Shown: positions 28,021-41,726 of the stretch, piece after piece
Layout of the letters: every line of letters begins with the position of its first letter
Numbering within the stretch: the first letter of the stretch is position 1
NCBI RefSeq assembly: GCF_000716445.1
Contig: NZ_JNWK01000013.1
Coordinates: 81,584-145,583, forward strand
Source: Streptomyces wedmorensis
GTDB lineage: Bacteria > Actinomycetota > Actinomycetes > Streptomycetales > Streptomycetaceae
Length of the DNA: 64,000 nucleotides
Direction of reading: 5' to 3'
The notes under the pieces: generated by a model
Told to the model about the DNA's origin: nothing
Seen by the model: only the letters and a program-made list of their open reading frames with translations
The model's database searches: none
Made by a program: the position numbers and the translations under genes

Positions 28021-29439
28021 GTGAAACGTCTGACAGCCCTGACGGCCGTCATATTGTTAGCGCTAACATCCCAGGCGGTGGCCGAGCCCGCGCCACCCGC
28101 GGCCGAGCTCGTACGAGCCGAGGCCGGGCACGTGCGCCCCACCGTCGACTTCCGCACCGACCTCCAGCCCATCGACGGCTTCGGCTTCTCGATGGCCTTC
28201 CAGCGGGCCGACCTGCTCAACGGCGCGCGCGGCCTCAGCCCGGCCAAGCGGCGCGAGGTGCTCGACCTGCTGCTCAGCAAGGAGAAGGGCGCGGGCCTCT
28301 CGATCCTGCGCCTCGGCATCGGCTCGTCGACCGACAGGGTCTACGACCACATGCCGACGATCCTGCCGGCCGACCCCGGCGGCCCTGACGCCACGCCGAC
28401 GTACGTCTGGGACGGCTGGGACGGCGGCCAGGTCTGGCTCGCCAAGGAGGCCAAGGCCTACGGCGTGAAACGGTTCTTCGCCGACGCCTGGAGCGCCCCG
28501 GCCTTCATGAAGACCAACGGGAGCGAGAACGACGGCGGCGAGCTCCGGCCCGAATGGCGTCAGGCCTACGCGAACTACCTCGTGCAGTACGCGAAGTTCT
28601 ACCGCCAGGAAGGCATCGACATCACCGACCTCGGGTTCACCAACGAACCCGACTGGACGGCGACCTACGCCTCGATGCGGTTCACCCCGCAGCAGGCCGT
28701 GGACTTCCTCAAGGTGCTCGGGCCGACCGTCCGCGCATCCGGGCTGAAGACCCAGCTGGTCTGCTGTGACGCCGCCGGCTGGGACCGCCAGATCGCCTAC
28801 ACCCAGGCGATCGAGGCGGACCCCGAGGCCGACAAGGCCGTACGGACCGTCACCGGCCACCGCTACAGCGGTCCGACCGACGTCCCGCAGCCGACCGACA
28901 AGCACGTGTGGATGTCGGAGTGGTCGCCGGACGGCACCACCTGGAACGAGAACTGGGACGACGGCAGCGGCTACGACGGCCTCACCGTCGCCGCCGACAT
29001 CCAGAACACCCTGACCGTCGGCAACGCCAACGCCTACGTGTACTGGACCGGCGCCTCCCTCGGCGCGACCCGGGGGCTCATCCAGCTCGCCAACCCCGGC
29101 GACGCCTACCGGGTGTCCAAGCGGTACTGGGCGCTCGCCGCCTTCAGCCGCTTCATCCGCCCCGGCGCCGTCCGCGTACCGGTCACGAACGCCGACCCTG
29201 ACCTGCGGATCACGGCCTTCCGCAACACCGACGGCAGCCGCGTGATCGAGATCCTCAACACCGGGACCACCGCGACCACCACCGAGCTAGCCCTGCGCGG
29301 CGGGCGCGACCGGAGCCCCGAGGCCTACGTCACCGACGAGACCCGCTCGATCACCCCGGCCGCCGTCGCCACCACCCGCGGCACGACCCTCTCGGCCGAG
29401 CTCGCCCCGCGCGCGCTCACCACGATCGTCCTCGACTGA
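28021..29439 (+). CDS. Secreted GH30-family glycosidase (xylanase-like), contains TTA codon and operator
   Basis: Extracellular clan-A glycosidase of 472 residues. A short signal peptide precedes a GH30 barrel with GFGFSMAFQRAD, the acid/base motif GFTNEPDW and a probable nucleophile Glu in VWMSEWSPDG, then a C-terminal side beta-domain. GH30 members near xylan loci are often glucuronoxylanases or xylobiohydrolases; the exact activity is not certain. The GTG at 28021 follows GAGGAG. Codon 13 is TTA, and the codons for the signal peptide contain a perfect AraR-type palindrome (28055-28068). The gene is therefore a candidate for dual control by bldA and by an internal operator. Confidence 0.88.
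   Translation: MKRLTALTAVILLALTSQAVAEPAPPAAELVRAEAGHVRPTVDFRTDLQPIDGFGFSMAFQRADLLNGARGLSPAKRREVLDLLLSKEKGAGLSILRLGIGSSTDRVYDHMPTILPADPGGPDATPTYVWDGWDGGQVWLAKEAKAYGVKRFFADAWSAPAFMKTNGSENDGGELRPEWRQAYANYLVQYAKFYRQEGIDITDLGFTNEPDWTATYASMRFTPQQAVDFLKVLGPTVRASGLKTQLVCCDAAGWDRQIAYTQAIEADPEADKAVRTVTGHRYSGPTDVPQPTDKHVWMSEWSPDGTTWNENWDDGSGYDGLTVAADIQNTLTVGNANAYVYWTGASLGATRGLIQLANPGDAYRVSKRYWALAAFSRFIRPGAVRVPVTNADPDLRITAFRNTDGSRVIEILNTGTTATTTELALRGGRDRSPEAYVTDETRSITPAAVATTRGTTLSAELAPRALTTIVLD
28055..28068. promoter_or_regulatory. Perfect LacI-type palindrome inside the GH30 coding region
   Basis: TGTTAGCGCTAACA is a perfect 14-base palindrome matching the arabinose operator family, located 34 bases after the GTG start. 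The codons used (TTG TTA GCG CTA ACA) include TTA and CTA, both rare in this genome, which suggests the site rather than codon preference is being maintained. Confidence 0.75.
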
Positions 29440-32471: not shown

Positions 32472-33199
32472 CCCCGTTCCCCGGCGGCGTGGGGATCTCC
32501 GGGGTGACCGTCTACGACTGGGAGACCGCCGACGGACTCTGCGGCGGCACGCCCCACATGCACCTCGTCTGCTCGGAGGCGTATGTCGTCATCGGCGGCG
32601 AGGGCAGCGTCCAGACGCTCACCACCACCGGCTTCGCCGAGACCCCGCTGCACCTCGGCGACGTCGTCTGGTTCACCCCCGGCACGATCCACCGCCTCGT
32701 CAACGCCGGCGGCCTGCGTCTCGTGGTGCTCATGCAGAACAGCGGGCTCCCCGAGGCGGGCGACGCCGTCTTCACCTTCCCCGCCCCCGTCCTCGCCGAC
32801 CCCGAGGCGTACCACGCGGCGGCCGCTCTCGTCGGCGACCAGGCCACGGCGGCGCGCCGCCGCCGCGACCTGGCGCTCGAAGGATTCCAGGCGCTGAGGG
32901 AAGGCGGGCTGCCCGAGTTCCACAGCGCGGCCCACCGCCTGAAGCACGAGCTCCTGGACGACTGGGAGGCCCGCTGGCGCCGCGGCCCCCTGGCCGCCGC
33001 CCGCACCACCGGCCGCCAGCTGCAACGGCTGAGGGCCGGCGACCTCACCCACCTCGGCCACGGCGCGGTGTCGCGCCTCGAACGCCCGGAGCGCCCCCGC
33101 TTCGGCATGTGCGGCCTCCTCCACCCCTACTCCCTCCCGGCCGGACCGCGCAGCGGTCCGTCGGGATCACCCCACCCCCGTCCCCCGAAGGAACACTGA
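32468..33199 (+). CDS. Cupin-domain protein
   Basis: Protein of 243 residues with an N-terminal cupin barrel. The segment containing [17 protein letters not shown] and [20 protein letters not shown] carries the metal-type cupin motifs. The following helical region ([18 protein letters not shown]) and Pro-rich tail are unlike simple cupins. Cupins of this type act as sugar isomerases, epimerases or binding proteins. It is translationally coupled at both ends, overlapping the PmoA-like gene by 4 bases and the GH62 gene by one. I infer a shared pathway with the two preceding genes; the substrate is unknown. Confidence 0.8.
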
Positions 33200-34674
33200 T
33201 GCGATTCCGCCATCCACCCCTGGTCCTGAGTCTCGTCCTCGCGGTCCTGTCGTCCCTGCTGCTAGGGGCGTCTCTCCTCGGAGCCCAGCCCGCCGCCGCG
33301 GCGACCGTCGACACCAACGCCTGGTACGTCCTGGTCAACCGCAACAGCGGCAAGGCCCTCGACGTCTACAACCTGGCGACCGGCGACGGCGCCCGCATCA
33401 CCCAGTGGACCAGGAACGACCAGAACCAGCAGCAGTGGCAGTTCGTCGACTCCGGCAGCGGCTACTACCGCGTCAAGTCCCGCCACTCCGGCAAGGTCCT
33501 CGACGTCCAGGGCGCGTCCACCGCCAACGGCGCCGCGATCACCCAGTACACCGACGCCAACGGCACCAACCAGCAGTGGCGCCTGGCCGACAGCGCGGAC
33601 GGCCACGTCAGGCTCGTCGCGCGCCACAGCGGCAAGGCCCTCGAAGTCCAGGGCGCCTCCACCGCCGACAACGCGAACGTCGTCCAGTACGACGACTGGG
33701 GCGGCGCCAACCAGCAGTGGCAGCTCGTCAAGGTGGGCGGCGGCACCCCCGGCACCTGTGCCCTTCCCTCGACGTACCGCTGGTCGTCGACGGGCGCGCT
33801 GGCGCAGCCCAAGGCCGGATGGGCCTCGCTCAAGGACTTCACCGTCGCCCCCCACAACGGCAAGCACCTCGTCTACGCGACGACCCACGGCACCACGGGG
33901 ACGGGAGTGGGCTGGGGCTCGATGAACTTCACCCCGTTCACCGACTGGTCGCAGATGGCCACGACGGGCCAGAACAAGATGTCGAATTCCGTCGTCGCAC
34001 CCACGCTCTTCTACTTCGCGCCGAAGAACATCTGGGTGCTCGCCTACCAGTGGGGCAGGACCGCCTTCTCCTACCGGACGTCGAGCGACCCCACCAACCC
34101 GAACGGCTGGTCGGCGGAGCAGGAGCTCTTCTCCGGAAGCATCGCCGGGTCGGGCACGGGCCCCATCGACCAGACGCTCATCGGCGACGGGACGAACATG
34201 TACCTGTTCTTCGCCGGTGACAACGGCAAGATCTACCGGGCCAGCATGCCGATCGGGAACTTCCCGGGCAGCTTCGGCTCGTCGTACACGACGATCATGA
34301 GCGACACGGAGAAGAACCTCTTCGAGGCGCCCCAGGTCTACAAGGTCAAGGACCAGAACCAGTACCTCATGATCGTCGAGGCCCGGGGCGCGAGCGAGCA
34401 GCGCTACTTCCGCTCGTTCACGGCCTCCAGCCTGAGCGGCTCGTGGACGCCGCAGGCCGCGACCGAGAGCAACCCCTTCGCCGGCAAGGCCAACAGCGGC
34501 GCCACCTGGACCAACGACATCAGCCACGGCGAGCTGATCCGCGCCGGCGCCGACCAGACCTTCACGATCGACCCCTGCAACCTGCAGTTCCTCTACCAGG
34601 GTCGTGATCCCAACTCCGGCGGCGACTACGGCCAGTGGGCCTACCGCCCGGGTCTGCTGACGCTCCAGCGCTGA
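33199..34674 (+). CDS. Secreted alpha-L-arabinofuranosidase, N-terminal CBM13 plus GH62
   Basis: Extracellular enzyme of 491 residues removing arabinose side chains from arabinoxylan. A signal peptide ends near QPAAAA (about residue 35). A ricin-type CBM13 with repeated NQQQW/NQQW elements spans about 36-180. A short linker (GGGTPGTC) leads to a GH62 domain of about 300 residues starting [18 protein letters not shown] and ending RPGLLTLQR. The ATG at 33199 shares its first base with the cupin stop. Parts of its GH62 domain are nearly identical in DNA to the GH62 domain of the fusion enzyme at 36698. Confidence 0.95.
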
Positions 34675-34679
34675 CCACG

Positions 34680-34710
34680 TGGCGGGCCCGGTCGTCACCC
34701 GGGCCCGCCA
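34680..34710 (+). terminator. Terminator after the GH62 gene
   Basis: Perfect 12-bp stem TGGCGGGCCCGG (34680-34691) with 34699-34710 and a 7-base loop. It ends the xylan operon before the sigma-factor gene. Confidence 0.85.
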
Positions 34711-34867
34711 TGGTCGCGGGCCAGGGCCGCGTCCGGGACCGGCGTCACCTGTGCCGGCCGCCCACCGGGCGACGCCGGCGGACCGACCCCGTCTCACGTC
34801 GTATTCTTTGCCGACGCAGAGGCCGGTCGCCGTCCGCCGGTGGACCGCTTCCCTGGAGAGGGTGGGA

Positions 34868-36418
34868 ATGGGGCTCATCGACGTGGACCACGCGGGGCTG
34901 GTCGTCGCGGCGCAGGCCGGTGACGACCGGGCGCGCGAGGAACTGATCGCCGCGTACCTGCCGCTGGTCTACAACATCGTCGGGCGAGCACTGAGCGGCC
35001 ATGCAGACGTCGACGACGTCGTCCAGGAAACCCTGCTGCGTGTGGTGCGCGACCTGCCTGCCCTGCGCGCCCCCGAGAGCTTCCGGTCCTGGCTCGTGTC
35101 GATCACGCTCCGCCAGATCAACACCCACCTGCACCGGAAACACGCCTTCGCCGAACGGACCACGGCCATCGACGAGGCGCACCGGATACCGGATGCCGGC
35201 GCCGAGCCCGTGGACACGGCGATCCTCCGGCTGCATGTCTCGGACGAGCGCCGTCGCGTCGTCGAGGCCAGCCGGTGGCTTGATCCGGATCATCGGGTGC
35301 TGCTGTCGCTCTGGTGGCAGGAATGCGCCGGTTCGCTGAGCCGTGACGACATCGCCGCCTCGACGGGGCTCACGGTCGCCCATGTCGGCGTACGCCTGCA
35401 ACGCATGCGCGAGCAGCTGGAACTGTGCAGGACGATCGTCGCCGCGCTGGAGGCCGACCCGCGCTGTCCCCGATTGGACGAGGTCGTCGTCGGCTGGGAC
35501 GGCCTGCGCGCATCGGTGTGGCGCAAGCGCATGGCGCGGCACACCCGTGACTGCCCGGTCTGCACGGCGCCGACGGCGGAACGGGTTCCGGCCGAGCTGC
35601 TCCCCCTCGGCCTCGCGACACTGGCCGTGCCGGCCGGACTGGTCTCCGCGCTCGCCGCCAAGGGCCTGCTGTCGGGTACCGCCGCGATCGCCGCCGGGCC
35701 GGCCACGGCACACCTCGCTGTCGGCACCGCGACGGGGGGAGGTGGCCTGCCCGTCGCGCTGACCGGCAAACTCGCGGCGATCACCGCTCACCCGCTGGTG
35801 AGCCTCGCCACCGGCGCGGTGCTCATCGCCGGAACCGCCGCCTATGTGACCTGGCCCGAACCGGCGCCTCGGGTGCCCGCCGTCATCGCCGCCCCCACGG
35901 CCGGCACCGCCTCGCCGGTCCCGTCGCGCGCCACGACGTCGGACGAACCGTCCCCCGTGAGTCCGTCCGCCGCCGCAGCCACTGTTCCGCTCGGCGCGGG
36001 GTCGCTGGAGTCCGTGGACGAACCCGGCCTGTTCGTCACCCATACCGGCGACCACGCGACGCTCGGTCGGGTCTCCGCGTCCAGCGGCGCGCAGACCCGC
36101 AACCGGGGCACCTTCACGGTCATCGCGGGGCTGGCCGACACACGGTGCGTCACCTTCCGCGCCGCGGACGGCCGGTATCTTCGCCACTCCTACCTCCGGC
36201 TGCGGCTGAGCGCCGACGACGGCAGCAGTCTGTTCCGTGAAGACGCGACCTTCTGTCCGCGCCCTGGGTCGGTCGCGGAGTCGGTGACCCTGCATGCGCA
36301 CAACTATCCCGGCTCCGTCCTCCGCCACCGTGACGGAGGCATCTGGCTCGACGGCTCCGACGGAACACGGGCCTTCGCCGGGCAGGCATCCTTCATCGTG
36401 CGCCGGACCTGGTCCTGA
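34868..36418 (+). CDS. Membrane-linked sigma-70-family factor with zinc-finger-like motif and C-terminal AbfB (arabinose-binding) domain
   Basis: Predicted ECF-type sigma factor of 516 residues fused to a sensor. Sigma region 2 (about 24-92, with DVDDVVQETLLRVV) and region 4 (about 125-187, with LSRDDIAASTGLTVAHVGVRLQRMR) are cytoplasmic. An HxxxCxxC motif (His225-Cys229-Cys232) resembles the ZAS anti-sigma signature. Hydrophobic stretches at about 240-290 and 304-328 likely cross the membrane. A Pro/Thr/Ser linker then leads to an AbfB/CBM42-like domain (about 378-516, with SLESVDEPGLFVTH, CVTFRAADGRYLRH and DDGSSLFREDATFC). I see no separate anti-sigma gene. The ATG at 34868 follows GAGAGGGTGGGA. 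Flanking arabinofuranosidase and xylanase genes suggest it senses arabinose side chains and controls them. That role is inference. Confidence 0.85.
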   Translation: MGLIDVDHAGLVVAAQAGDDRAREELIAAYLPLVYNIVGRALSGHADVDDVVQETLLRVVRDLPALRAPESFRSWLVSITLRQINTHLHRKHAFAERTTAIDEAHRIPDAGAEPVDTAILRLHVSDERRRVVEASRWLDPDHRVLLSLWWQECAGSLSRDDIAASTGLTVAHVGVRLQRMREQLELCRTIVAALEADPRCPRLDEVVVGWDGLRASVWRKRMARHTRDCPVCTAPTAERVPAELLPLGLATLAVPAGLVSALAAKGLLSGTAAIAAGPATAHLAVGTATGGGGLPVALTGKLAAITAHPLVSLATGAVLIAGTAAYVTWPEPAPRVPAVIAAPTAGTASPVPSRATTSDEPSPVSPSAAAATVPLGAGSLESVDEPGLFVTHTGDHATLGRVSASSGAQTRNRGTFTVIAGLADTRCVTFRAADGRYLRHSYLRLRLSADDGSSLFREDATFCPRPGSVAESVTLHAHNYPGSVLRHRDGGIWLDGSDGTRAFAGQASFIVRRTWS

Positions 36419-39061
<2,643 letters not shown>

Positions 39062-39101
39062 CCCGCCCGATCCACGGTCACACAAGGAGAACACCCCCCT
39101 C

Positions 39102-41726
39102 ATGAACAACCCCACGAACGGCGCGCGCCGCGGGCGTCACCGTCGTCGCTGGAGCGCCACCGCCCTGCTGCTCGGTGTGCCCGCCGCCGTCGTCCCGTAC
39201 CTCCTGTTCACCCAGGAGGACTCGCAGGCCGCGACGGTCGACGCCAACGCCTACTACCGGCTGCTCTCCGTGCGCAGCGGCAAGGCCCTGGACGTCAACG
39301 CCTTCTCCACCGCCGACGGCACCCGCATCCAGCAGTGGACCGACCAGAACACCGCCAACCAGCAGTGGCGGCTGCGGCCCACCGGCGACGGCTACTACGA
39401 GCTGGTGAACCGCAACAGCGGCAAAGTGCTCGGCACAGCGGGCGATTCGACCGCACCGGCGGCGGCCGTCGAGCAGCAGACCGACAGCTCCTCCGCCTCC
39501 CAGGAGTGGCGGATCGACGAGGTGAGCGGTTCCGGCGCCGTCACCTTCACCTCCCGCAGGAGCGGCCAGGTCCTGGACGTCTCCGGAGGCTCCACGGCTC
39601 AGGGCGCGGCGATCATCCAGTATCCCGGCAGGGGCAGCGCCAACCAGCAGTGGAGGCTGCTGAAGGTCGCCGACGCGCAGGCGGCCGCGGCCGGACCGTA
39701 CACGTGGCGGAACGCCCAGGTGGTCGGCGGCGGTTACGTCACCGGGCTGGTGTTCAACCCACGGGAGAAGGGGCTGCTGTACGCGCGTACCGACATGGGC
39801 GGCGCCTACCGCTGGGACAGCGCGGCCGAGCAGTGGATCCCGCTGACCGACTGGCTCGGTGAGAAGGACTGGAACCTGCTGGGCATCGACGCGCTGGCCA
39901 CCGACCCCGTCGACCCCGACCGGCTCTACCTCGCGGCCGGCACTTACACCAACGAGTGGGCCGGCAACGGCGCGCTCCTGCGCTCCACCGACCGGGGCCG
40001 CACCTTCCGGCGCACCGACCTGCCGTTCAAGCTGGGCGGCAACGAGGACGGCCGCGGGGCGGGCGAACGGCTCGTGATCGACCCCTCGGACAACCGCACC
40101 CTGCTGCTGGGCACCCGCAAGAACGGCCTGTGGCGCAGCACCGACAGCGGTGTGACATGGCGGCAGGTCTCCTCGTTCCCCGTCAAGGACGGGGCGAGCA
40201 GCGGCGCGGGCATCTCCTTCGTGACGTACGGTCCGGCAGGCAGCAACACGGTCTACGTCGGCGTCGCCGACAAGTCCACCTCCCTGTATCGGTCCACCGA
40301 CGGCGGCACCACCTGGCAGGCCGTCCCCGGACAGCCCACCGGCCAGTTCCCGCAGCATGGTGTCCTCTCCGGCGACGGCTCGCTCTACCTGACGTACACC
40401 AACGCCCCCGGACCCAACGGCGTGACGGCGGGCTCGGTGTGGAAGCACACGCCGAGCGGCGGGGTCTGGAAGAACGTTTCCCCCTCTCAGGGCAGCTACG
40501 GCTTCTCCGGACTGGCCGTCGACCCGCGCAAGCCGTCCACGGTGATGGTCACCACCCTTGACCGCTGGTGGCCCGAGGACGAGATCTACCGCACCGCCGA
40601 CGGCGGCACGACGTGGAAGGCGCTGGCGGACAAGTCGGTGCGGAACGCCTCCGCCGCTCCCTACGTCGGCACCCACACCGGGCACTGGATGACCGCCCTG
40701 GCCATCGACCCCTTCGACTCCGGGCACGTGCTGTACGGCACCGGCAACGGCATCTGGCGCAGCAAGGACGCCACCGCCACCGACAGCGGCGGCACCAGCC
40801 ACTGGACCGTCGGAGCGCGCGGCCTTGAGGAGACCGCGCTGATGGACGCGATCGCCCCACCGGGCGGCGCCACCGTCCTCACCGCCATGGGCGACCAGGG
40901 CGGATTCCGCCATGACGACCTGACCAAGGTGCCCGCCGGGCGACTGGGCAACCCGATGATGACCAACAGCACCGACATCGACTTCGCTCAGGCCAACCCC
41001 TCGATGATGGTCCGGGTCGGCCGTGGCGGCGCGCAGGACGGCGCATACTCCACCGACGGCGGCACCAGCTGGACCGGCTTCAAGGCGGAGCCGGCGCCCG
41101 GCGCCCAGGACGGCCATGTCGCGCTCGCGGCGGACGGCTCCACCATCGTCTGGACCCAGGCCGGCCAGGCCCCGTACCGCTCGACCGACAAGGGGGCGAG
41201 CTGGTCCAAGGCCCACGGCCTCGGCACCGACGCGGTCGTCGTCGCCGACCGCTCCTCGGCCAGGACCTTCTACTCACTGTCCGGCGGCACGCTCCACGCC
41301 AGCACGGACGGCGGCGCGACCTTCACCGCCCGCGCCACGAACCTGCCCGCCGGCCGGCTCACGGCCGTCCCCGGCGTCGCCGGAGACCTGTGGATCGCCG
41401 GCGGCGGCCAGGGGCTGCTGCACTCCACCGACGGCGGCCGCACCTTCACCACGCTCGCCACGGTGCGGTCCGCGTCCGCCCTCGGCTTCGGCAAGGCCGC
41501 ACCCGGCGCCTCCTACCAGGCCCTCTATCTGATCGGTACGGTCAAGGACGTCACCGGCGTCTTCCGCTCCACCGACAAGGGTGCCACCTGGCTCCGCGTC
41601 AACGACGACGCCCACCAGTGGGGCGCCATCGGAGGCGTCGGCGTCGTCACCGGCGACCCCGACACCTACGGTCGCGTCTTCGTCGGGACCAACGGACGCG
41701 GCCTCCAGTACGGTGACCCGTCCTGA
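39102..41726 (+). CDS. Secreted GH74 xyloglucanase with N-terminal CBM13
   Basis: Extracellular enzyme of 874 residues hydrolysing xyloglucan. An Arg-rich signal peptide (about 1-45, ending DSQAA) precedes a CBM13 (about 46-190) with NQQWRL-type repeats. The GH74 twin seven-bladed propeller has GGGYVTGLVFNPREKG, TDMGGAYRW and many repeated blades of the type RSTDGGTTW and RSTDKGATW. The DPFDSGHVLYGTGNGIWRS segment carries a conserved Asp of the active cleft. It is 40 bases after the fusion gene, with AAGGAG before the ATG, and probably cotranscribed. Its CBM13 resembles that of the GH62 enzyme at 33199. Confidence 0.95.
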   Translation: MNNPTNGARRGRHRRRWSATALLLGVPAAVVPYLLFTQEDSQAATVDANAYYRLLSVRSGKALDVNAFSTADGTRIQQWTDQNTANQQWRLRPTGDGYYELVNRNSGKVLGTAGDSTAPAAAVEQQTDSSSASQEWRIDEVSGSGAVTFTSRRSGQVLDVSGGSTAQGAAIIQYPGRGSANQQWRLLKVADAQAAAAGPYTWRNAQVVGGGYVTGLVFNPREKGLLYARTDMGGAYRWDSAAEQWIPLTDWLGEKDWNLLGIDALATDPVDPDRLYLAAGTYTNEWAGNGALLRSTDRGRTFRRTDLPFKLGGNEDGRGAGERLVIDPSDNRTLLLGTRKNGLWRSTDSGVTWRQVSSFPVKDGASSGAGISFVTYGPAGSNTVYVGVADKSTSLYRSTDGGTTWQAVPGQPTGQFPQHGVLSGDGSLYLTYTNAPGPNGVTAGSVWKHTPSGGVWKNVSPSQGSYGFSGLAVDPRKPSTVMVTTLDRWWPEDEIYRTADGGTTWKALADKSVRNASAAPYVGTHTGHWMTALAIDPFDSGHVLYGTGNGIWRSKDATATDSGGTSHWTVGARGLEETALMDAIAPPGGATVLTAMGDQGGFRHDDLTKVPAGRLGNPMMTNSTDIDFAQANPSMMVRVGRGGAQDGAYSTDGGTSWTGFKAEPAPGAQDGHVALAADGSTIVWTQAGQAPYRSTDKGASWSKAHGLGTDAVVVADRSSARTFYSLSGGTLHASTDGGATFTARATNLPAGRLTAVPGVAGDLWIAGGGQGLLHSTDGGRTFTTLATVRSASALGFGKAAPGASYQALYLIGTVKDVTGVFRSTDKGATWLRVNDDAHQWGAIGGVGVVTGDPDTYGRVFVGTNGRGLQYGDPS

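Follow-up and report, generated by a model that had tools for sequence, protein, structure and literature searches.

In order to characterize one gene of a 64,000-nucleotide stretch of Streptomyces wedmorensis DNA (the window; NCBI RefSeq assembly GCF_000716445.1, contig NZ_JNWK01000013.1, positions 81,584 to 145,583), we examined its domains, its relatives and its genomic neighborhood. The gene is an open reading frame (ORF) on the forward strand that runs from an ATG, with a GGAG-type ribosome site 5' of it, to a stop codon and encodes 516 amino acids (Table 1). The chain carries, in this order, an extracytoplasmic function (ECF) sigma factor, a zinc anti-sigma-type motif, hydrophobic segments, a Pro/Ser/Thr-rich linker and a C-terminal AbfB domain of the carbohydrate-binding module 42 (CBM42) type. 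The first-pass annotation had proposed this one-chain fusion, and Pfam, NCBIfam, alignments and an AlphaFold model agree on it. The annotation had also placed the gene between two arabinofuranosidase genes without a separate anti-sigma gene. Both points hold: a gene with ricin lectin and glycoside hydrolase family 62 (GH62) domains lies upstream, a GH10-ricin-GH62 gene lies downstream, and no other gene of at least 90 amino acids was called from 33199 to 41726. For a strain of Streptomyces venezuelae, a protein with 92% identity is on record. The protein is a candidate for a sensor of arabinofuranose that controls the downstream enzyme genes.

Table 1. Features of the sigma gene and its neighborhood, in window coordinates; residues are those of the 516-amino-acid protein.
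Feature	Coordinates	Strand	Basis
Fused ECF sigma / zinc anti-sigma-like / membrane / AbfB (CBM42) gene, 516 amino acids	34868..36418	+	Pfam, NCBIfam, AlphaFold, orthologues
Sigma-70 region 2, residues 26-91	34943..35140	+	Pfam PF04542 (Sigma70_r2), E 1.7e-13
Sigma region 4 / helix-turn-helix helices, residues 114-195	35207..35452	+	TIGR02937 match, model helices; Pfam region 4 under cut-off
Zinc anti-sigma-like helices, residues 200-238; putative ligands C200, H225, C229, C232	35465..35581	+	Invariance 109/109; block pLDDT 83-95
First hydrophobic segment, residues 244-262, probably not spanning	35597..35653	+	Inferred from hydropathy and the Arg/Lys-rich stretch after it in CAP paralogues
Likely transmembrane helix, residues ~310-328 (hydropathy peak 302-329)	35795..35851	+	Inferred from hydropathy
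Pro/Ser/Thr/Ala-rich linker, residues ~332-372	35861..35983	+	Sequence; low model confidence
AbfB/CBM42 beta-trefoil, residues 379-511; beta pocket H440, D459; cysteine pair C427, C463	36002..36400	+	PF05270; PDB matches including 2d43 and RsgI5 9fnk; 44/44 conserved
Conserved non-coding block between sigma and enzyme genes	36508..36590	+	Alignment of 21 sequences including the window
Small leader ORF; stop (TGA) overlaps ATG of the GH10-GH62 gene	36654..36701	+	Frame kept in relatives
Upstream ricin-GH62 gene; next to the sigma gene in close relatives only	33199..34674	+	Pfam
GH10 xylanase - ricin lectin - GH62 arabinofuranosidase gene; conserved partner, likely target	36698..39061	+	Pfam; locus survey
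Ricin-GH74-like gene, 40 bases past the enzyme gene, probably same operon	39102..41726	+	Gene call; ricin and BNR/sortilin-type Pfam matches

The N-terminal part is a short sigma domain that has the two regions, 2 and 4, characteristic of ECF sigma factors. Region 2 is recognized by Pfam, as the first pass had expected, and the NCBIfam model TIGR02937 (sigma70-ECF) covers residues 22-185 (E 3.7e-20). The claim of a region 4 is carried by this match and by helices in the AlphaFold model, but the region alone is not significant in Pfam (Sigma70_r4_2, E 0.2). The zinc anti-sigma (ZAS) domain is defined by an HxxxCxxC motif plus an upstream His or Cys about 25 residues away. This pattern is found here as H225-x3-C229-x2-C232 plus C200; all four ligands, and likewise W218, R219 and K220, are invariant in the 109 of 109 aligned rows that share the N-terminal part, which confirms the zinc-type motif noticed earlier. 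Pfam zinc-finger families gave no match to the protein up to E 1. Segment 200-238 looks like a zinc anti-sigma-type signature in the same chain as the sigma domain, and it may inhibit that domain. With its sigma domain, zinc segment, long C-terminal extension and helices, the last placed by hydropathy alone, the protein has the make-up of the membrane-fused ECF class (the ECF48/52/53 kind), whose members span the membrane with one or two helices according to PMC8999054.

The AlphaFold model, computed from a 52-row alignment, has mostly confident sigma helices, followed by a short zinc region, also helical, that extends to residue 238. Residues 266-370 are without confident structure, and 376-513 form a beta-trefoil for which the predicted local distance difference test (pLDDT) is mostly above 90. 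With an overall predicted template modeling score (pTM) of 0.35, the model does not predict how the parts are placed relative to each other.

The C-terminal domain, which the first pass had read as AbfB, matches Pfam PF05270, a beta-trefoil of some 135 residues, over residues 379-511 (E 8.6e-40, 136.5 bits against a cut-off of 22.8), and the same match was obtained in 40/40 AbfB-type rows scanned. The top 19 Foldseek rows are CBM42-containing chains, with a template modeling (TM) score by target of about 0.9 to isolated CBM42 chains and of 0.90 to the CBM42 of RsgI5 (9fnk), a chain that phmmer also matches to the domain (E 2.8e-12). A chance match is ruled out by the E value, the confident trefoil and the presence of CBM42 in all top structural matches. 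H440, D459, C427, C463 and Y480 are invariant in all 44 AbfB-type rows; this set includes near-copies (L010/L066; L001, L061 and L065), and L067, whose frame is broken, is excluded from residue counts and included in the neighbor count (genomes and loci carry our own G and L labels). With a numbering offset that we assume for Aspergillus kawachii AbfB, H440, D459, C427 and C463 align with its H416, D435, C401 and C439. In the CBM42 of AtAbf43C the beta pocket consists of H70, Y73 and D89 and the gamma pocket of H118, N120, Y121 and D136; H70 and D89, the counterparts of H440 and D459, touch arabinose, according to the account in PMC12493170. The spacing of 19 between this His and Asp is maintained in our protein, and the His and Asp that mark an arabinofuranose pocket of CBM42 are present in the beta pocket of 44/44 rows.

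Between the zinc segment and the AbfB domain, the first pass had placed a membrane segment within residues 240-328. Hydrophobic segments do lie there (~244-262 and 302-329), but neither is strong by hydropathy, and placement of AbfB outside the cell is weakly indicated by the protein's own hydropathy and charges. In the paralogues that carry a CAP domain (n=33), the 25 residues before the second segment contain on average 8.6 Arg/Lys against 1.6 after it, with more before in 32/33 and equal numbers in 1/33; in 32/33 the inner flank is rich in Arg and Lys and the outer linker in Pro, Ser and Thr. This bias fits a single crossing with the N-terminal part inside and the first segment not spanning. 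In the 516-residue protein, the Pro, Ser and Thr fraction is 0.42 in the 60 residues after the second segment. From the paralogues, the conserved cysteine pair and this linker we infer that AbfB lies outside the cell.

In order to see which neighbors are conserved, we took the AbfB-type loci from the best 80 of 446 loci in named genomes. There are 40: 31 from Streptomyces (best segment at least 67% identical) and nine others, eight of them from Micromonosporaceae. In all 31 Streptomyces loci a GH62 gene follows on the strand of the sigma gene, at most three called genes away; GH10 and GH62 share one ORF in 28/31, and a ricin lectin is recognized in 24 of these 28. When the genes of the 31 loci were clustered, only the sigma gene (31), the enzyme (31) and the GH74-like gene (21) recurred, with other families in at most 3/31. 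The last product is presumably GH74-like; Pfam returned no GH74 model for it. Among the loci L075-L114, 28 paralogues with other domains (19 fused to CAP, 6 to Glyco_hydro_cc and 3 others) served as controls, and GH10, GH62 or GH74 was found in 0/28 of their flanks, some of which are short (L094, L105). Neighbors were searched for with the GH10, GH62, GH74 and ricin sequences of the window, and selected genes were also run against Pfam; other glycosidases near control paralogues may escape this search. Pfam confirms the domain types of 40 AbfB-type (window in, L067 out), 19 CAP and 6 Glyco_hydro_cc proteins.

The idea that orthologues always flank GH62/GH10 genes stands for the downstream GH62 gene in Streptomyces. 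It fails for the upstream one, which is adjacent only in the closest relatives L061, L065 and G015 (two genes off in the distant L070) and was rejected as a conserved partner. The partner kept across the loci is the downstream GH10-GH62 gene alone. Of the more distant AbfB-type loci, L070, L071, L073 and L074 have GH10 and/or GH62 nearby. Other hydrolases are close to the sigma gene in L063 (alpha-galactosidase and GH11) and in the Streptomyces locus L068 (an AbfB-domain protein, GH12 and a GH74-like gene). The distant orthologue in G045 has GH54 and GH12 genes nearby, and that in G007 lies near two proteins with AbfB domains, of which one, as called, matches GH43 in part.

The linkage was also examined in an independent sample, in which presence of the sigma gene was determined for 61 relative genomes and 12 genomes picked by enzyme match. 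An AbfB-type sigma (at least 49% identity) occurs in 8/61 relative genomes; GH62 is found somewhere in 8/8 of these, compared to 31/61 overall (hypergeometric 0.0027). Among 248 genomes, with four candidates scored per genome, the GH10-GH62 fusion is present at 78% identity or more in at least 11; it is a single 712-residue frame without lectin match in G035 and matched partly in G143. The sigma gene lies directly before this close enzyme form in 11/11 same-genus genomes, six from the 61-genome sample and five from the 12 picked (the sigma of G143 being in two frames). In contrast, none of the seven genomes with a 66-73% enzyme form (G016, G168, G170, G073, G163, G011 and G126) has an AbfB sigma beside it at E 1e-40; G163 has a 49% sigma relative on a different contig. 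Fisher's test of 11/0 against 0/6 (G126, partial, omitted) gives 8e-5, a descriptive figure since the genomes are related. Further matches among the 248 genomes are a 48% fusion in G144 and GH62-only matches at 79-81% in G069 and G120. The link to an arabinoxylan enzyme is supported more strongly by the survey (31/31 loci, 11/11 genomes) than by the single locus.

The stretch between the sigma and enzyme genes may hold the control elements. We collected 33 such stretches, 30 of them under 700 bases, and aligned 21, window included. All aligned sequences share a block that starts TAACnCTTT and ends near GTTACG (36508-36590 in the window), which is probably the control region of the enzyme operon. 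Allowing up to 2 mismatches, its 24-base core occurs in 10/248 genomes. Eight of these belong to the eleven same-genus genomes that have the pair, and the other two are distant and probably chance matches; a reversed control gave 2 matches. A TA[AG]GGT -10-like element was seen by eye before the sigma gene in relatives, and the window copy does not keep it. A search of 34000-40000 for Rfam elements had no match at gathering score. The small leader before the enzyme gene keeps its frame and its overlap in 23/23 sequences where it is separate, at 12 to 54 amino acids in relatives; it is fused in frame to the enzyme in five loci (L044, L058, L059, L060 and L066) and absent in L070 and L071. The overlap of leader and enzyme suggests translational coupling.

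From the domain architecture, the predicted sensor fold, the conserved residues and the strict gene linkage we infer the inhibition, topology, ligand, promoter and release of a one-protein transmembrane sensor-switch. The ECF sigma domain (residues ~8-195) would be kept inactive by the fused zinc anti-sigma-type segment (200-238). The protein would be anchored in the membrane by one helix (~310-328), and the Pro/Ser/Thr-rich linker would bear the AbfB/CBM42 domain outside the cell, where the beta pocket (H440, D459) could bind terminal arabinofuranose on arabinoxylan or released oligosaccharides. Ligand binding would lift the restraint, most likely through regulated proteolysis, and the freed sigma domain would direct transcription of the adjacent GH10-lectin-GH62 (and GH74-like) operon. 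We give a probability of roughly 0.6 to this sensor-switch as a whole.

A number of observations speak against the sensor-switch. Hydropathy alone permits two spanning segments, which would place AbfB inside, and the charge bias at the second segment is weak in the AbfB type (n=44; Arg/Lys more frequent before than after it in 9 rows, equal in 29 and less frequent in 6). In the sensor domain, the position three after H440, which in AtAbf43C is the ligand contact Tyr73, holds Leu in 36/44 rows and Trp, Phe or Met in 8/44, and position 506, motif-aligned with the gamma Asp, holds Gln in 35/44 and Asp in 5/44. The gamma-pocket His is retained in 31/44 AbfB-type rows and the alpha pocket is not intact by inspection; alpha and gamma pockets look degraded, and we expect one functional pocket (beta) out of three. 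Only the beta pocket looks intact, so the affinity for arabinofuranose may be low. Among the distant loci, L064 has merely a GH16 gene five genes away, and L069 and L072 are without a recognized glycosidase within five genes (3 and 5 neighbors Pfam-scanned). Finally, the 24-base core is unique in its own genome at up to 3 mismatches, so that a genome-wide regulon had to be dropped; at up to 2 mismatches it is missing in 3/11 paired genomes (G015, G017 and G117); and no block common to the upstream regions of the sigma gene and the enzyme was seen, which leaves the usual ECF autoregulation, also rejected as a candidate, without its motif.

One alternative is a protein with two spanning helices, whose AbfB domain would read internal arabinose in the cytoplasm or serve another purpose; the first hydrophobic segment is at least as hydrophobic as the second (median 2.1 against 1.7, 44 rows). 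However, the invariant cysteine pair matches C401/C439 of a secreted enzyme, the linker is of the wall type, and paralogues bear secreted-type CAP or glycosidase domains; those with CAP also have a flank rich in Arg and Lys that separates the two segments. We consider a cytoplasmic AbfB domain very improbable. An outer AbfB domain might instead bind a glycan with arabinose in the wall or capsule of the organism or its neighbors, and the protein would then be a wall-integrity or adhesion sensor. Degraded gamma and alpha pockets would suit this, as would CAP- and other-domain paralogues that are not next to GH10, GH62 or GH74, and the ECF52 member SCO4117, which is described as governing development and antibiotics (PMC5826349). 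We nevertheless regard a wall sensor as quite unlikely, with GH62 beside the sigma gene in every Streptomyces locus and nothing else but the GH74-like gene recurring there.

The two genes could also share a substrate and not their regulation, with the operon run by a LacI-type regulator or a split ECF pair (described below) and the sigma gene part of a neighborly cassette. The upstream regions of the two genes do lack a shared block, a LacI-like palindrome is found at 28055, and a split pair, with no AbfB sigma, precedes the distant enzyme form in three genomes (G016, G011 and G170; G168, G073 and G163 lack the pair); but conservation of exactly this pair amid differing neighbors is hard to explain without function, and all eight same-genus genomes with the block core have the sigma gene. 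We think a mere cassette unlikely, though it carries some weight. The mode of release is a separate matter: with the same sensor and target, the sigma factor might stay tethered, the ligand loosening the anti-sigma segment, as in membrane-bound one-component activators. RsgI is cleaved and its fragments are degraded by ClpXP, as reported in PMC12203970, and processive degradation of this kind from a freed C-terminus would have to stop short of an N-terminal sigma domain in the same chain; otherwise the sigma domain must be released by a cut or by a change in conformation. On the other side, a review expects activation of ECF48/52/53 by proteolysis and notes that truncated IutY is active (in the part concerned of PMC8999054), and the sigma domain of SCO4117 alone gave a milder defect than full deletion (per the account in PMC5826349). 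Release without proteolysis appears improbable to us, though not negligible, and in the sensor-switch we keep proteolysis as the likelier route.

The first pass had judged that the class is not wholly new, and rightly: ECF52 and ECF53 are known as membrane-fused sigma factors that combine a zinc motif and a helix with a domain for carbohydrate binding or a hydrolase domain (PMC5826349, PMC8999054 and PMC10766802). For ECF52, to which SCO4117 of Streptomyces coelicolor belongs, and ECF53, activation via the extension has been proposed, as it is here (PMC5826349, PMC8999054), and a 2024 review treats their carbohydrate and hydrolase domains as predicted and not experimentally validated, in its section on them (PMC10766802). 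SCO4117 differs in having a smart00776 module, atrA as a neighbor and control over development (as presented in PMC5826349), whereas our protein has AbfB/CBM42 and a GH10-GH62 partner. Behind the Pro-rich region, where ECF52 has a smart00776-type module according to the same source (PMC5826349), our protein has AbfB PF05270 instead. The zinc ligand pattern is there, but the pfam13490 zinc finger of ECF52 gave no match up to E 1. Two other ECF52 candidates, L146 and L147, look like CAP-type paralogues by eye. If the smart00776 module is NPCBM, as we assume, an ECF52 protein might be found in the own genome through that domain; there are five NPCBM loci, and the one checked for sigma (L139) had no match, so this route to an assignment was abandoned.

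The closest working analogue is RsgI5 of Clostridium (Acetivibrio) thermocellum, which acts with SigI5, shares a CBM42 on a sensing protein and has the architecture RsgI_N-UNK-CBM42, as given in PMC4711584. RsgI5 is a separate SigI-type anti-sigma protein from a Firmicute, whereas here sigma factor and sensor form one ECF-type chain in Actinomycetota; no RsgI match to the 516-residue protein was found in Pfam up to E 1 or among the best 25 of 73 NCBIfam rows, and the CBM42 sensor looks like an independent invention in the two. IutY of Pseudomonas putida (ECF243) likewise joins a sigma factor and a membrane anti-sigma in one chain and is freed by proteolysis, but it responds to aerobactin in iron-starvation signaling, and the part of PMC8999054 that describes it mentions no sugar-binding module. 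The CBM42 domains of GH54 AkAbfB (2d43), GH43 AtAbf43C and SaAraf43A share the fold, the beta-pocket His and Asp and the cysteine pair; they are parts of enzymes, whereas in our protein the domain would be a sensor with gamma and alpha pockets mostly lost. We take the CBM42 form to be new within the known membrane-fused kind: it was not found in the literature searched, although the main ECF classification papers, outside that search, may list it.

Membrane-fused sigma factors have long been predicted to carry sugar-binding extensions, which as of 2024 were still experimentally unvalidated according to one review (PMC10766802). The family described here offers a candidate ligand, arabinofuranose, with a recognizable CBM42 pocket, and one strictly linked candidate operon in culturable Streptomyces. 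It would allow testing whether a single polypeptide relays a signal from solid plant fiber to RNA polymerase, and by what means a sigma domain at the N-terminus would escape destruction in the proteolysis that sets it free.

The sigma-zinc-membrane part is not confined to AbfB proteins. In Streptomyces and Micromonosporaceae it also occurs with other C-terminal domains, namely CAP, Glyco_hydro_cc, Lcl_C or unassigned ones (L014, L089, L081, L084 and L085), with best segments about 41-59% identical to our protein; these paralogues differ in the outer domain and have no GH10, GH62 or GH74 in the flanks examined. It is tempting to see here an exchangeable outer-sensor sigma platform of actinomycetes (CBM42, CAP, glycosidase-like, Lcl_C or none), in which the CBM42 form directly senses polymer-bound arabinose for one adjacent operon; we hold this wider view tentatively, at somewhat less than even odds. 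In a tree of the N-terminal part, L012/L068 fall on the CAP side (support 100/99), and the CBM42 form may have arisen twice; two independent origins are not established, a single origin not being rejected (approximately unbiased test, p 0.33). The own genome holds a CAP-fused sigma paralogue on another contig (L140:3143-4603). Short paralogues of about 300 residues (L075, L076, L087 and others) have the sigma and zinc part and no outer domain; GH10 is near 1/12 of them and ricin-lectin genes are near all 12 but one or two. In L076, GH5-ricin and then GH95-ricin genes follow the short paralogue.

The split pair consists of an ECF sigma of 176-177 residues and a hypothetical protein of 258-273 residues with one hydrophobic segment, a Pro/Ser/Thr linker, a predicted beta-sandwich tip and no Pfam match (L128:6873-8221, L130:4245-5560, L142:2579-3891 and L143:7532-8835). 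In G016, G011 and G170, where the pair precedes the more distant enzyme form, it has a 176-residue sigma and a partner of 261-273 residues; beside that form in G168, G073 and G163, both split pair and AbfB sigma are absent. Split pair and fused sigma stand side by side in G078, lie within 10 kb of each other in L038, L039 and L048, and coexist in L143. By this comparison alone, the same enzyme may be wired to one or two protein forms of one idea. A fold search of the pair's outer domain gave generic beta-sandwich matches only, some of them cellulose-binding domains.

Two further observations concern the gene and its surroundings. The sigma gene frame is broken around the alanine-rich membrane part in L067 and G143 (L119, L126), which may be real decay or assembly error. 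The sigma gene of the window lies in a large pentose locus (14145-41726) with an FGGY kinase, an L-arabinose isomerase and a class II aldolase (araB/araA/araD-type), GH43, GH3, GH30 and two more GH10 genes and, by the look of the sequence, a LacI-type regulator and a sugar ABC transporter. Near the start of the GH30 gene, at 28055-28068, is a perfect palindrome, TGTTAGCGCTAACA, which we take to be LacI-operator-like.

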